Shown here: piece by piece, positions 12,490 through 38,423 of the stretch
Position numbering within the stretch: position 1 is the stretch's first letter
Layout: each line of letters starts with the position of its first letter
From: Microgenomates group bacterium Gr01-1014_7
Lineage (GTDB): Bacteria > Patescibacteriota > Microgenomatia > Daviesbacterales > UBA10151
Assembly (NCBI GenBank): GCA_007376405.1
Contig: VMGD01000007.1
Coordinates: forward strand, 1-53,156
Direction of reading: 5' to 3'
DNA: 53,156 nucleotides
The notes under the pieces: generated by a model
Told to the model about the DNA's origin: nothing
The model's input: the letters and a program-made list of their open reading frames with translations, nothing else
Database searches by the model: none
Made by a program: the position numbers and the translations under genes

Positions 12490-13119
12490 TCAAATTTGGC
12501 CGGGCATCACAAGCATTAAGTATTCCAAAATGGCCCGGATGTTGACATTTTGCGCTGCCCATTCCTCTGCTTGCAAAAGTTCTTTGACAAAATCTTTATT
12601 AGCCGGGAGATGCTTTCTAAAAAAGATAACTAAAGCATATAAAAATTCTTTTCTATCTTTTAGTTTTTCAATATATTCAAACCGCTCCCCGGTTTCCGAA
12701 TTAATTAATTTTTCTATATCTTTTATATAATCTGACGACTGATGACTAACGACTGATGACTGAATTCTGATTATTTGGCATCTGGAAAGTACAGTTGGCA
12801 AAAATATGGCATCAGAAGGAGCTGCCAAAATTAAAATGGCATCAGGTGGAGGCTCTTCCAGAGTTTTTAAAAGTGCGTTCTGGGCTTCTAAAGTTAGCGC
12901 GGATGCGTCTTCCAAGACTATAACTCTCCCCTTAGCAGAATATGGCTTTAAAGAAAAATGCTCCTTAATTTTTCTGGCCTGTTCAATGCCAAGTTTAGAG
13001 TCGTGAGTGAAATAAAGGAGGTCAGGATGAGGGGTTGGTAGATTATGGCTCGCTAAAATTTTTCTTATCTCCTTCAGTCTTACTTCAAGATCAGGTGAAA
13101 TTAACAGTCTTGCAATCAT
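12490..13119 (-). CDS. holB: DNA polymerase III delta'-like subunit (HolB-like)
   Basis: GRVIVLEDASALTLEAQNALLKTLEEPPPDAILILAAPSDAIFLPTVLSRCQIIRI, typical of clamp-loader AAA+ delta'. Confidence 0.8.
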   Translation of the reverse strand: MIARLLISPDLEVRLKEIRKILASHNLPTPHPDLLYFTHDSKLGIEQARKIKEHFSLKPYSAKGRVIVLEDASALTLEAQNALLKTLEEPPPDAILILAAPSDAIFLPTVLSRCQIIRIQSSVVSHQSSDYIKDIEKLINSETGERFEYIEKLKDRKEFLYALVIFFRKHLPANKDFVKELLQAEEWAAQNVNIRAILEYLMLVMPGQI

Positions 13120-13144
13120 GGGAGAATTCTAACATAATGAATGT

Positions 13145-27671: not shown

Positions 27672-27688
27672 CCCACCCCTGGGGTGGG
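27672..27688. repeat. GC-rich palindrome, copy 1 (CCCACCCC-T-GGGGTGGG), possible terminator
   Basis: 8-bp perfect arms immediately 3' of the trmD stop and in the convergent pilO/trmD intergenic gap. Confidence 0.8.
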
Positions 27689-28413: not shown

Positions 28414-28430
28414 CCCACCCCTGGGGTGGG
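28414..28430. repeat. GC-rich palindrome, copy 2 (CCCACCCC-T-GGGGTGGG)
   Basis: Same 17-mer as at 27672-27688; directly 3' of the KH-domain gene stop codon. Confidence 0.8.
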
Positions 28431-30647: not shown

Positions 30648-32717
30648 CTAATCCGGCATAACTTGCGCCGAAATCTTTTGTAATTGTGCCCGCAAGTTAG
30701 GATATTTGTCAAGCTCCAGGTTATCAATTAGTAAATCCCGGGCTGCTTGTCTGGTCTTTTCAATCAGAGGTAAATCCGAAAGCCTGGCTATTTTAAATTC
30801 AAACCTGCCATGCTGAGCTGTAGAAAATATTGTCCCAGAGCCCCTGATTTTTAGATCCAGTTCTGCTAATTTTAGTCCGTCAAAAGTTGTTTCCAGATAT
30901 TTTAAGCGTTTGCTGTCCTCAACTGAAGAGTGAGTGGTATAAAGCAGGCAAAAAGACTCTTTGCTTCCCCTGCCGATTCGTCCACGCAGCTGGTGGAGTT
31001 GTGCTAAACCATATCTTTCTGCCCCTTCAATTACCATAATAGTAGCATTGGCAATATCCATTCCCACTTCAACCACCGAAGTTGACACTAAAATCTGTAT
31101 TTTATTTGAGCGGAAGTCACCTATGATCTGCTCTTTTTCTTTGGCCTTCATTCTGCCGTGTAAAAGACCCAGATTAAATCTTGGAAATATTTTCTTTAAA
31201 TTCTCGAATTCTTTTTTGGCAGCACGCACCGATACTAAAGTTTCCGATTCTTCAATCAGAGGAGTAATTATGTAAGCTTGCTCCCCTGTCAGGACGTGCT
31301 TGGCAATAAAGCCGTAGCTGTCTTTTCTTTTTTGCTCAGGCACAACATAAGTCTTTATCTTAAGTCTACCCTTTGGCATTTCATCAATTATTGATAAATC
31401 CAAATCTCCATAAACGGTGAGAGCAACAGTTCTGGGGATGGGAGTGGCGGTCATGGTTAAAAAGTGAGGGGCAGGGCCCGCCTGTCGGACGGGTAAACCT
31501 TTTTGGCGAAGTTTTGTGCGCTGCGCTACACCAAAACGGTGTTGCTCGTCTATTATAACAAGTCCCACATTTTTGGCTGCCAGTTTATCCGATAAAAGAG
31601 CATGAGTGCCAATAATAACAGAGGGTTTAGGGTTTAGGGTGTAGGGTTTAGTAAATTTTCTGCTCCCTGTATAAATCCCGACCGTAATTCCAAATGGTTC
31701 TAACAGTCCGGATACTGTCTCAAAATGTTGCCAGGCAAGAATTTCTGTCGGGGCCATGAAAAGTGAACTGTAGCCATTAAGATGGGCCAGATATATAAAT
31801 AACGCCGCAACTACGGTTTTGCCCGATCCCACCTCTCCCTGCAAAAGTCTGTTCATTGGGTATTTTCTTTTAATATCGCTTGTGATCTCAGTGATTACCT
31901 TAATTTGAGCAGAGGTAAGCTTAAATGGTAAGCTGCTGATAAATCTATCAAGGTCTTTTTTTTCTACTTTCCATGCTTTGGTAATTGGTTTTTCCTGCCA
32001 GCTCAAACGGGTTTTTTGAGTGGCCAAAGAAACATAAAAAAGTTCATCAAAGCCCAGTCTTTCCCGGGCTTTGTCTATCTCATCAGTATCTTTGGGAAAG
32101 TGAATTTTTGCAAGAGCATCTTTTAGGATAAGCATATTATCCCGGATTTTATCCGGCAAGGGGTCTTGAAGTTTATTCAATATAACAGGCAAATATTTAT
32201 CTATTTTTGTCCGCAGCCATTTGGAAGCAACCCCCGAGGTCTCGGAATAAACAGGAACCAGTCTGCCGGTATGAAGGTGTGAAGCTAATCCACCCTCCGG
32301 GTGGTCTAGGTTGGCACCTACTCTTTCCCATTGGGGAACCATGATTGACAGTTTGTTTTTATATTTTGCCAATTTCCCGGAAATTTGCAGTTTATCCCCT
32401 GCTTTGATGCTTTTAATAAGATATGACTGATTAAACCAGGTCAGCATTATCGGCGAGGTGCCGTCATTAAAAATGGCCTGGGTTAAAACTCTACCATAGC
32501 GGGTATAAATATTTTTAATAGACCAGATTTCACCCTGCAGGGTGACAACCTCCCCTATTTGAGTTTCATCTGCCGGTTTGATAACAGAATAATCATCATA
32601 TCTGAAAGGAAAATGGAAAATTAAATCCTCAAGAGTAAACAGCTCCAGCTTCTCCAGCCTTTTGCCCATAAAAAAACCTATGCCGGGCAAACTGGAAAGC
32701 GGTGTCTCTAGATCCAT
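30648..32717 (-). CDS. recG: ATP-dependent DNA helicase RecG
   Basis: RLLQGEVGSGKTVVAAL, MAPTEILAWQHF, VIIDEQHRFGVAQR, MTATPIPRTVALTVYGDLDLSIIDEMPKGR, GRIGRGSKESFCLLYT. Confidence 0.96.
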   Translation of the reverse strand: MDLETPLSSLPGIGFFMGKRLEKLELFTLEDLIFHFPFRYDDYSVIKPADETQIGEVVTLQGEIWSIKNIYTRYGRVLTQAIFNDGTSPIMLTWFNQSYLIKSIKAGDKLQISGKLAKYKNKLSIMVPQWERVGANLDHPEGGLASHLHTGRLVPVYSETSGVASKWLRTKIDKYLPVILNKLQDPLPDKIRDNMLILKDALAKIHFPKDTDEIDKARERLGFDELFYVSLATQKTRLSWQEKPITKAWKVEKKDLDRFISSLPFKLTSAQIKVITEITSDIKRKYPMNRLLQGEVGSGKTVVAALFIYLAHLNGYSSLFMAPTEILAWQHFETVSGLLEPFGITVGIYTGSRKFTKPYTLNPKPSVIIGTHALLSDKLAAKNVGLVIIDEQHRFGVAQRTKLRQKGLPVRQAGPAPHFLTMTATPIPRTVALTVYGDLDLSIIDEMPKGRLKIKTYVVPEQKRKDSYGFIAKHVLTGEQAYIITPLIEESETLVSVRAAKKEFENLKKIFPRFNLGLLHGRMKAKEKEQIIGDFRSNKIQILVSTSVVEVGMDIANATIMVIEGAERYGLAQLHQLRGRIGRGSKESFCLLYTTHSSVEDSKRLKYLETTFDGLKLAELDLKIRGSGTIFSTAQHGRFEFKIARLSDLPLIEKTRQAARDLLIDNLELDKYPNLRAQLQKISAQVMPD

Positions 32718-34198: not shown

Positions 34199-35287
34199 TT
34201 AAGGAGTGCGCCTTGCTCTATACTCACTTATAACTTGTGCTGTTGCTTGTTTTTCTGACATGCCTTTCATCTTAACTAGAGCCTCAATCTCTCCTGCTAA
34301 ATGAGCTTTAATTGCATCGTCCGTAAATTCTTGGGGGTTAACTTCAGATTGAGTAGCTGGTGGTTTCGGTCTACGTCTAAAAGGAATGGATATTCTGAGT
34401 CCTCTTTTGGATGGCGGTTCTATTGGTGTTGTAAGTTCTCCCGAGGCTCTCATTGCTTGAACAGTTTCTTCAAAGGCGCGGCGGCTTTCCCCAGCTCTAT
34501 CTAGTGGGTCTGCAACATCTACATTCCCACTTTCCAAGTGGGAAGCTGGTTCTTCTGGTACAGGGGATTGGGGTCTTTCACGGATTGCTTCATCCAGAAT
34601 CCGCTGGCCCTCTATTGTATCTTCTCTTACTTGTTCTCTGGCAGCTGCAGCTTTTTGGTCAATAACTTCCTCTGCGGAAGTCGGAGATTCTGCAGCTGTA
34701 GGTTCAGCAGGAGGTGGTTGCGGAGGAGCTTCTGTAGGTTCCTCAGTGGACTGGATACCTGCAATCCTGGCAAGTTCCGCTGGTGAAAGAGAGGGAATTG
34801 TAGGAACAGGCACAATAGCATGAGGGTCAGGTAAAACTGTAGTTTGATATACATTCCCACCCGCTTCGCCAGCCTTTGGTGTGATTTCACTAGGCGAGCT
34901 TTCCAAGTGGGAAGCTGGTTCTTCACCAGGGTGTGCAGATTCGACTGGAATCTTGGTTGCTAAAAAGTCTAAACGAGCAGCTACTACCGGAGATTCATCA
35001 AGTCCTAAAATTCTGGCTCTTGAGAGATCCTCTTCCAGCAAATTAAGATCATATTTTGTAATAATTCCTACCTCGTGCCTTGATATGGCATCAAATAAGC
35101 CTATAACAACCTCTTCCCTTCTTCCAATCTGCCTGATTTGAGCTAAATTTGGGTCATTCGGGCCGATCTGGTCCAAAAGACTTAAAAATGTTGTTACATT
35201 TCTTGGCTTTGCCAAATCCAGAGATTGCATTTTATTTAACACTGCTTCTGAGTCAGGATTTTGTACCATATATGATAATTTTACCAT
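34199..35287 (-). CDS. Hypothetical protein with Pro/Glu/Ala-rich disordered centre carrying two embedded repeats
   Basis: 362 aa ORF; PASHLES appears twice, encoded by palindromic repeats. Divergent from the 35307 gene. Confidence 0.6.
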   Translation of the reverse strand: MVKLSYMVQNPDSEAVLNKMQSLDLAKPRNVTTFLSLLDQIGPNDPNLAQIRQIGRREEVVIGLFDAISRHEVGIITKYDLNLLEEDLSRARILGLDESPVVAARLDFLATKIPVESAHPGEEPASHLESSPSEITPKAGEAGGNVYQTTVLPDPHAIVPVPTIPSLSPAELARIAGIQSTEEPTEAPPQPPPAEPTAAESPTSAEEVIDQKAAAAREQVREDTIEGQRILDEAIRERPQSPVPEEPASHLESGNVDVADPLDRAGESRRAFEETVQAMRASGELTTPIEPPSKRGLRISIPFRRRPKPPATQSEVNPQEFTDDAIKAHLAGEIEALVKMKGMSEKQATAQVISEYRARRTP

Positions 35288-35306: not shown

Positions 35307-38300
35307 ATGGGCGTTGAAAGTAGCAGTTCAGGTGAGCTAAATGTGCCTCCAACACATGAGGAGGCCCTTAATGCTGCGCTGGATTTGGTAAGAAAACCTG
35401 CAGGCGCTGCTGGGCCGGTTCACCAACCCGGAATTACTACTGCAAGTGTTGCACCGGAAATAAGAGGAGAAACTGTAGGCGGGTCCTCGGAGCCTCAATC
35501 GTTCAATGATGACTGGCCGTCACCTGATGAGGATGGGCCTCCAACGCCGGCATCACCTGCCGGAGCTGATGTAACATCGGAACCTGCAGTAGCTAACAGG
35601 CCGGTAAACATTTTATCCGGAGAAGAAGAAAGGAGAGTTAGACAAGAGAACATTGATTTTTATAGAAATGAAGTAGACAAACGTATTAGCGCTTTTCAGC
35701 AGGGTAATCTTCATATGGAAAGCCTGACTAGTTTTCTTCCCTGGGATTTAGTTCTTTCCAGATATGAGGCAGGAAGCCAGGAATTGGAGGATGCCTTTGC
35801 CAGAGTAAGAAATGTGCTTACACCTGAAGAATTTGAAAGAATTCAGGGACTGTTTTATGAAAATATTGCTTCTTTGATAAACGTGATAGAGTTTACGTCT
35901 TCTGGTCTCCCAGGGGGATGGGGGCTTTTGCCGGGTGATGCCGGATGGCTGGACCAGTACAGAAGGGATATTATTGCGCATCCTGAACGGGGAATTAAAA
36001 TCACCAATGATGATGAAGAGTGGAATAAATGGGTAGCAAATCCTGTCCAGACCCTGGCTACTGCTCCAAGATCCGGAATTACTACTGCTAGCGTTCCACC
36101 TGCACGAGAATTACCAGTCTTACCAACGGAGTTGGCTGATTTTGAAGCCTTAAGGGCCTCGGGTGATTTAATTCCATTAGACCCTCGAGCAGACCCGGTA
36201 AACTTTGGACCAGAATCAGCTGAACCTGCAGGTTCTGGATTGCCCGGAGATGAAGCAGGAACAGCAGATACTGCTGCAGCCAGTACCCCGGCCCGGCCTT
36301 TAACAGATGAAAATGAACAGCGAAATACTGAAATAACACAAGGAAGAGAATTGGTGCAGGAATGGATAGATGTATTTAAAAAACCGAGTAATGGGGCAGG
36401 GGGAAAGTTTTCAATTTTCCATCTCGAACATAATCAACTGGAAAGATTCCAGAGATTATTAGTATCAGCAAGATTTTCACCTGCTGAAGCTGTTGAAATT
36501 AGCAACCAAACCCAAGCCATTCTCATTCCTATAGAGTCTAGATATGTACAAGCGTCGTACAGATCTGATCTGGCATCTCTTATTAACGCTATAGAGCTAC
36601 CAGAAATTTATGGCAGGACATATAGAGCTGATGGTGGATGGTTGAATGAATGGAGGCAATACTTTATTGATAACCCGCAATTAGGGGTAGAAATTACTGT
36701 TAATGATGAGGATTGGAATAACTGGTTGGCAGATTTGGAAAAATCAGAAGTTATACCTGAAGGATATACAGGGCCAAGGACTCCGTGGAATACTCCGGTT
36801 GCGGAAAGAAGAATCAGTACGTCGGAGCTGGCAGAAATGTCAGGAAGCAGTGGAATGACAATAGAAGACAGGTCGGGAGAACTTGCCAGATCACTGCTTG
36901 AGCAAATAGATTTATACAGAGTTTTTGTACTGCAGGATCCAAAATTGCATGATGAATTCTACAGAATCCTTAATAACGGAACTCATCCGCAAAATTCTCA
37001 CCTTTTGGGATGGATGGAAGAAAGATACAGGAATTATTTAGATGATGGTCAATTTACCGGTGACAGAAGGGAATTTTTAGAAAATCAGGCTGAGTGGTGG
37101 TTATATGAAGAAATGCCTAATCTTATTTATAGATCAGGTGTTGGGCTTAATACTATCCTGATAAAAGGTAATTTAAGAGGTCTGCTTACACATGAGGAAT
37201 TCGTAAGAGTAGTAGTCCGGGTAAGGGATTTATATGAAATAAATTCTCCGGGCCAGGGTGCAGAGTGGTCTGAATTTTTCCGTGAAGTTCAGGGAAATCC
37301 TAACTGGATGCAGGCTGACCGAGAGGGAGACAGTGGCGTGGAACTAAGGGATACAATTCAAAAACTTTTGGATTTTGCTCATGAAGAGAGAATTGAAGGA
37401 AGATTGGAGATTAATGATTTATTAAACTTTGCAGAGTATGAACGTGGAATTTCCCCGGGGTTCAGGGACAGAAATGTAAAGGCTTTCGTAAATGAGTTGT
37501 TAGAAGAAAGAATTCCTGGAATAATTGTAGATCTGCAGCTGGGACCGGGTAATGATTTAATAGCTTCGCTACAAGAGATCCTGGAAGATAAGTTATATGC
37601 AAAAGTTGTTCACGGAGTCGCCCAAAGGCACCACAACTATATAAAGCAGCAAACAGTAGCAGGGCAAATACTAGCAGATGAAGACACACAAAAATTAGCT
37701 GAAATCTGGTCTAAGCTGGATCAGGAACTTCAAGAGAAACAATCTCAGAGAGGGTTTAGAGGTAAGGCTGGAAGAGCTTTTGCCGGGTTAAGAAGAGGTC
37801 AAAGGCCAGTTGCCCCGGAGCCGGCTGCAGTCGTAGCAGTTGAGCCTGTATCCCCTCAAGTCCAGGAACAAAGGCAAAGATTAAATACAATTTTATCACG
37901 AATGGAAGAAGCTAGAAGAAGTGGATGGGATGTGTGGACTTTAGAAGATATTGCACAAGTTCTAAGCAGAGAAGCTCAGGAGGTACGTGGGCGTCCCACT
38001 GATAGGTTTCAATTTTCCGGAAATGCAGAGGCCCTTGAGCAAGAAATAGTAGATACTTTTGTTGGTTCAGGATTTGGGTCGCAAGATAGAGGTTTAGAGA
38101 GTGTGGTTAGACGGCTGGAAGGTATTTTAGGTAGTGAAGCGAGTAAAACTATTATTGATCATTATAGAGCCAACCTGGATGCCGTTCAGAGTTATGCGGA
38201 TCTTCGGTCAGCTAGGGAAATAGAGCAAAGGTATAAACAACTTGAAGAGGATCTAAGATACAGATCAATTGATGAAACACAGCTACCACAAAGATTAGTG

Positions 38301-38423
38301 GCATTTGAAATGGTACCTAATGATAGAGTTCATGAGTTATTAAAAGAGTACTTGTCACTCAACCAATATCAAAGAGTTATGGAGCAGTTTTACCAATTGA
38401 TGGATGAAGAAGGAGGAAAGTAA
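35307..38423 (+). CDS. Large uncharacterised protein (1038 aa) with internal duplication
   Basis: Long ORF. Parallel segments SLINVIEF...GGW...DAGWLDQYRRDIIAHPERGIKITNDDEEWNKW and SLINAIEL...ADGGWLNEWRQYFIDNPQLGVEITVNDEDWNNW. Confidence 0.75.
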   Translation: MGVESSSSGELNVPPTHEEALNAALDLVRKPAGAAGPVHQPGITTASVAPEIRGETVGGSSEPQSFNDDWPSPDEDGPPTPASPAGADVTSEPAVANRPVNILSGEEERRVRQENIDFYRNEVDKRISAFQQGNLHMESLTSFLPWDLVLSRYEAGSQELEDAFARVRNVLTPEEFERIQGLFYENIASLINVIEFTSSGLPGGWGLLPGDAGWLDQYRRDIIAHPERGIKITNDDEEWNKWVANPVQTLATAPRSGITTASVPPARELPVLPTELADFEALRASGDLIPLDPRADPVNFGPESAEPAGSGLPGDEAGTADTAAASTPARPLTDENEQRNTEITQGRELVQEWIDVFKKPSNGAGGKFSIFHLEHNQLERFQRLLVSARFSPAEAVEISNQTQAILIPIESRYVQASYRSDLASLINAIELPEIYGRTYRADGGWLNEWRQYFIDNPQLGVEITVNDEDWNNWLADLEKSEVIPEGYTGPRTPWNTPVAERRISTSELAEMSGSSGMTIEDRSGELARSLLEQIDLYRVFVLQDPKLHDEFYRILNNGTHPQNSHLLGWMEERYRNYLDDGQFTGDRREFLENQAEWWLYEEMPNLIYRSGVGLNTILIKGNLRGLLTHEEFVRVVVRVRDLYEINSPGQGAEWSEFFREVQGNPNWMQADREGDSGVELRDTIQKLLDFAHEERIEGRLEINDLLNFAEYERGISPGFRDRNVKAFVNELLEERIPGIIVDLQLGPGNDLIASLQEILEDKLYAKVVHGVAQRHHNYIKQQTVAGQILADEDTQKLAEIWSKLDQELQEKQSQRGFRGKAGRAFAGLRRGQRPVAPEPAAVVAVEPVSPQVQEQRQRLNTILSRMEEARRSGWDVWTLEDIAQVLSREAQEVRGRPTDRFQFSGNAEALEQEIVDTFVGSGFGSQDRGLESVVRRLEGILGSEASKTIIDHYRANLDAVQSYADLRSAREIEQRYKQLEEDLRYRSIDETQLPQRLVAFEMVPNDRVHELLKEYLSLNQYQRVMEQFYQLMDEEGGK

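Follow-up and report, generated by a model that had tools for sequence, protein, structure and literature searches.

In-frame layering of REP-like palindromes in genes of a Daviesbacteria-like family, viewed from a 39-nt insert in one repeat copy

How does one of two otherwise identical repeat copies within a single bacterial gene come to carry 39 additional nucleotides: by insertion of one small palindromic element into another, or by precise loss of such a segment from the other copy? The question is posed by a 53,156-nt stretch of a Microgenomates genome (1.09 Mb in 26 contigs), referred to here as the window. The gene harboring both copies lies in the minus-strand frame of 34199-35287, the only one of the six frames with a positive codon-usage score. 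The relevant features are as follows.

34199..35287, minus strand: host gene, an E/P/A-rich 362-aa ORF containing both copies (ORF list, codon usage)
34521-34555, minus strand: copy 1, the empty form, peptide EEPASHLESGNV (sequence comparison and family consensus)
34524-34544, minus strand: canonical palindrome TTCCCACTTTCCAAGTGGGAA within copy 1 (family consensus)
34851-34924, minus strand: copy 2, the filled form, in which the 35 nt of copy 1 are split by 39 nt (sequence comparison)
34861-34899, minus strand: 39-nt in-frame insert, peptide SPSEITPKAGEAG, separating the 7-nt centre from the right arm GTGGGAA

An earlier note, made from the sequence of the window, had described the two copies as identical apart from 39 nt that keep the frame at 13 codons. 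Both descriptions were borne out, the first by 35 nt (acattcccac followed by tttccaagtgggaagctggttcttc) that are 100% identical between the copies, and the second by translation in the coding frame. Copy 1, in coding orientation, has the sequence GAAGAACCAGCTTCCCACTTGGAAAGTGGGAATGTAG, and its hairpin is more stable than that of shuffled sequences (z = -3.8); copy 2 encodes EEPASHLES-SPSEITPKAGEAG-GNV, with the insert (GCTCGCCTAGTGAAATCACACCAAAGGCTGGCGAAGCGG) placed directly before GTGGGAA. The insert boundaries are ambiguous by 1 nt (34861-34899 or, equally, 34860-34898). The host protein has no match among Pfam and NCBIfam profiles. Homologues of its gene were sought among 57 relatives and in 45 family genomes and none was found, which rules out a direct empty-site test in that gene; in the genomes searched its empty site is visible only as the paralogous copy 1.

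Copy 1 belongs, in canonical form, to a dispersed family of REP-like palindromes. The family consensus is TAGCTTCCCAC-N7-GTGGGAAYGTA, and the centre is nearly always 7 nt long (TCGTCAA, TTGACGA, ATCGGAA, TTCCGAT and other variants). The pattern GCTTCCCAC-N(0-30)-GTGGGAA was found at about 77 separate places in 25 of the 45 genomes of the Daviesbacteria-like family, with 0 to 11 copies per genome, versus 2 matches for its reversed control in the same genomes. After both-strand listings and one tandem duplicate had been merged, 79 listed places gave 74 distinct ones. Of these 74 readable places, 54 fall within ORFs that are 150 aa or longer, mostly in a single frame yielding (A/R)SHxxxG(N/K), the family-type peptide being ASHxxxGNV; the other 20 are intergenic or within short ORFs. 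The family behaves like REPs and is protein-coding as Rickettsia palindromic elements are.

Might the repeat instead be an ordinary protein motif (EEPASHLES...GNV), selected within one protein, with the palindrome as a by-product? The only two canonical copies in the window's genome do reside in this one gene and share the flank GAAGAACC, which is outside the family consensus, though no more extended homology. However, relatives carry the same DNA palindrome in genes that are unrelated (holB, pheT, recG and a murC-like gene), and its occurrence in intergenic regions, on either strand and in other frames largely refutes a purely protein-level origin, which we regard as very improbable indeed. 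Within the palindrome reading, the arrangement of the copies is likely to reflect a short local duplication of the element that preceded the second insertion, although EEP is also found at other sites of this E/P-rich protein.

What might have spread the outer palindrome? Of 43 family genomes, 39 encode proteins with a Y1_Tnp domain, and the window's own genome encodes four. In three genomes (G065, G026 and G023) a RAYT-type gene has the palindrome on both sides and one further copy inside. All three proteins match Y1_Tnp above the cut-off; an NCBIfam scan of two of them returned only REP_Tyr_transpos, below the model cut-off. Overall, 5 of 77 palindrome places lie no more than 1 kb from a Y1 domain, compared with 0.62 expected, two of the five being in one locus. 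GTAG occurs within a few bases 3' of the stem in 19 of 69 copies versus 1.35 expected. By analogy with the REPtron layout, the outer element is probably mobilised by a RAYT-type single-strand transposase, although none of the three RAYT-like genes in the window's genome is flanked by it. We call the element REP-like rather than REP, because classical REPs have a 5' GTAG head, which is lacking here in its usual orientation: the 3'-side GTAG corresponds to CTAC on the 5' side of the opposite strand. The initial view that copies near Y1_Tnp genes are simply flanking was abandoned, as some are inside the RAYT ORF and others on both sides of it. The copies within these ORFs (L079 1443-1462, L080 1575-1594 and L081 1454-1473, in G065, G026 and G023, respectively) are in frame and immediately follow a YIHRN motif, a conserved place in the presumed transposase.

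The direction of change could be addressed through filled and empty sites in relatives. We searched 382 genomes of the class for palindrome arms 24-54 nt apart, a search that detects only inserts between intact arms and whose control gave 0 matches. Five matches fell inside the family: the window (39 nt), G058 (42 nt), two in G059 (21 nt each) and G026, the last being a 31-nt tandem duplication. The four true inner inserts all have a length divisible by three and are all inside ORFs; of the three from relatives, two are in holB, which encodes the delta' subunit of DNA polymerase III (PF13177), and the third is in pheT (PheRS beta). Five matches outside the family were dismissed, four as rRNA-like, carrying GCTTCCCACTTAGATGCTTTCAGCGGTTATC, which we take to be 23S rRNA, and one (G236) as unrelated. 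A G027 match with a 15-nt centre was likewise dropped as presumably native UvrA sequence (SHNPRSTVGT).

The holB gene provides the fullest record. Among its 30 orthologues, 19 lack the element, 6 have the empty palindrome, 3 have possible remnants and 2 are filled. The two inserts differ, one following ATCGGAA in G058 and the other ATC in G059, the palindrome being otherwise identical. In a tree that is largely weakly supported, these two sequences form a sister pair (92/83) inside a group to which most element carriers belong; two separate second insertions, or one insertion later replaced, are the simplest readings. The window itself contains a holB gene (12502-13128, minus strand), which lacks the element. 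The pheT gene of G059 holds the filled form, with TCAA-CCCCGATTAAATCGGGG-TCAA, and at the same codon the palindrome is empty in G026 and G061. A related arrangement was found in a G058 gene that, judging by its protein, we assume to be murC-like: TAG-CCCCCGATTCAATCGGGG-TAG, with a 21-nt palindrome, lies immediately behind the element and is absent from five orthologues. The nesting and adjacency of small palindromes are thus recurrent, with gain as the direction of change. Layered in-frame REP-like elements are, in other words, a real and recurrent feature of the family.

In the window's genome, the 17-nt palindrome of the pheT insert also follows a RAYT-like ORF, about 370 nt downstream. CCCCGATT(A/C)AATCGGGG is a separate small palindrome (L083 near 1909, L131 near 1077 and L076 at 1236-1252); within genes it is flanked by TCAA or TAG repeats, with a total gain of 21 nt each time.

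Across the family the empty palindrome is the rule, and orthologues in relatives show both empty and filled palindromes; judged on this basis, the change in copy 2 is an insertion, not a loss. The earlier note had treated precise loss as an equal alternative and had taken uniqueness of the 39-mer as a sign of simple deletion in copy 1. The 39-mer indeed proved unique, both in its own genome and in the 382 genomes of the class, so that no donor copy was found, as would be expected had both copies once carried the 39 nt. Deletion does not follow from this, however, because copy 2 minus the 39 nt is exactly the canonical form of the family. A deletion in copy 1 would have had to restore, to the base, a form known at about 70 other places, and it runs against the gain seen in orthologues of holB, pheT and the murC-like gene. 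We consider it highly unlikely. The empty and filled sites that the note had proposed to look for in related genomes were both found, in holB and pheT.

What, then, is the 39-mer? The proposal that one small palindrome had been inserted into another holds for the outer repeat, which is real and dispersed; the 39-mer, a single copy, may or may not be mobile itself, the signs in favour being its short inverted ends and a junction and end geometry shared with one relative's insert. We found no second copy in its genome by pattern search or BLAST, and none in the 382 same-class genomes at up to 3 mismatches over 38 of 39 nt. A near match in G011 (CGCCAAGTGAAATCAC) was set aside as what we take to be mreB-like coding sequence rather than an element. 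The inverted ends noted earlier do exist: GCTCGCC and GGCGaAGC can form 7 bp that leave a single A bulged, an arrangement matched by 0.5% of shuffles and 0.8% of the 39-mers in the window. A strong hairpin across the entire insert, in contrast, is not supported, its folding energy being unremarkable (z = -1.05). As to a target-site duplication, nothing beyond the 1-nt ambiguity is present. Elements of the IS200/IS605 type make no larger duplication (PMC2817692), so its lack is compatible with such a route.

A parallel is the 42-nt insert of G058, which has the identical junction (centre|GTGGGAA) and the same end geometry of 7 bp, a bulged A and a 2-nt tail. This geometry arises in 0.04% of shuffles of the 39-mer and 0.12% of shuffles of the 42-mer, the comparison being post hoc, and the best fold of the 42-mer uses a stem different from the end stem. 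On one hand, the 39 nt may be of local origin, a piece of linker that was copied or captured when replication slipped or switched templates at the hairpin. The host protein has E/P/A/S/T-rich linkers to which the peptide SPSEITPKAGEAG is similar, the lack of any other 39-mer copy agrees with such a source, and replication errors do occur at a similar site, as the 31-nt tandem duplication in G026 demonstrates. On the other hand, no match longer than 10 nt was found in the window and no BLAST match in the genome, the ends of the 39-mer pair, its junction and end geometry recur in G058, and the inserts of relatives include clear palindromes. Local capture deserves serious attention as a minority view: the 39-mer may be linker-like DNA that was captured or, in the reading that we favour, a palindromic stem-loop element that has degenerated. 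By analogy with the relatives, copy 2 would have arisen by their nesting route.

Overall, a REP-like element residing in the host gene, with copy 2 subsequently gaining a second, 39-nt insert, is the best explanation and one that we hold with reasonable confidence. A RAYT-type single-strand (HUH/Y1) transposase would spread the outer hairpin through the Daviesbacteria-like family, and in-gene copies would persist where an open frame crosses the element, encoding the short, tolerated ASHxxxGNV peptide. Either two acquisitions of the element by the host gene, or a single one with a short local duplication after it, may account for the two copies. Copy 2 would later have gained 39 nt at the junction of hairpin centre and right arm, retained as a stop-free multiple of three lying in a permissive linker. 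Second inserts of 3n length might accumulate because insertions are drawn to hairpins or to the single-stranded DNA that these expose, or else because such sites have already proven permissive; the two are indistinguishable here, since the search sees only inserts between intact arms. A bolder version, in which other small hairpin elements land preferentially in this hairpin, essential proteins such as DNA polymerase III delta' and PheRS beta grow by stepwise in-frame nesting, and the 39-mer and the G058 42-mer form an unnamed insert family targeting the junction of centre and right arm, strikes us as doubtful.

Protein-coding palindromes have precedents in Rickettsia and in some REP-rich bacteria. 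REPs inside genes and Rickettsia palindromic elements (RPEs) are already known, and the literature also mentions REPs within other palindromes (PMC3733652). The REPs of RAYT/REPtron systems are GTAG-tagged palindromes (PMC3733652, PMC2817692), and the family described here resembles them in consisting of short, dispersed palindromes of 20-40 bp, in the flanking of RAYT-type genes of relatives on both sides, in the enrichment of GTAG beside the element and in the presence of some published REPs within genes. It differs in that GTAG is 3' of the stem rather than a 5' head, copies are few per genome (0-11), and most are inside genes, whereas known REPs are mostly intergenic. The RPEs and CGTC REPs of Rickettsia, found in frame in genes whose proteins are likely functional, often those of replication or repair (PMC3733652), offer a second parallel: our palindrome, too, is inserted in frame within genes, as in holB, where 19 of 30 orthologues lack it. 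Unlike RPEs, which have no dedicated transposase (PMC3733652), the family sits beside RAYT genes; it also differs in sequence and nests one element within another in orthologous genes. Palindromes within palindromes have been described for A. variabilis GTAG-15, T. roseum GTAG-23 and H. neapolitanus CGTC-1 (PMC3733652, section 7). In those cases the REP has entered an outer palindrome that is apparently its target, and that section does not describe them as gene insertions, whereas the REP-like element of our family receives the insert, with layers that are in frame in genes.

In the open-access papers searched we found neither a report on such palindromes in genes of Microgenomates or CPR bacteria nor a prior in-frame series of empty and filled sites. 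The setting, protein-coding palindromes beside RAYT genes in the reduced genomes of the Daviesbacteria-like family, is accompanied by a full series in holB: no element, empty, and filled by two different second inserts. Such a series is a natural record of selfish hairpins adding and layering peptide segments in essential proteins, suggests that genes can grow stepwise from nested repeats, and makes it testable whether hairpins are insertion hot spots or merely permissive sites.

The window holds further repeats. A second palindrome family of its genome is represented by the 17-nt CCCACCCCTGGGGTGGG, present at 27672-27688 and 28414-28430, the latter copy being followed by TTAGCTTGACAC, similar to segments of recG and of a uvrC-like gene. 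In recG (30648-32717, minus strand) there are two more palindrome-like in-frame segments, HPEGGLASHL near 32285 and KGLPVRQAGP near 31490, and HPEGGLASHL resembles a segment of a UvrC-like ORF of the same genome (L077, CCCACCCCCGGGGTGGGTTAGCTTCACAC). The recG of a relative (L040, G058) has an ASH-family palindrome at nearly the same spot, which may thus have been hit by two palindrome families. The 1038-aa ORF next to the host gene (35307-38423), with no Pfam match, contains a 28-nt direct repeat (35428-35455 and 36073-36100, 89% identical) encoding GITTASV.P. Finally, the exact 21-nt core TTCCCACTTGGAAAGTGGGAA, whose presence far outside this lineage may stem from shared ancestry, transfer or convergence, was found dispersed in 264 Gb of sequence mainly in Campylobacterota (17 stretches, L009-L025), in Sulfurovum, Sulfuricurvum and MAGs labelled Helicobacter, where the copies have flanks of their own, TGCA...CGAG.
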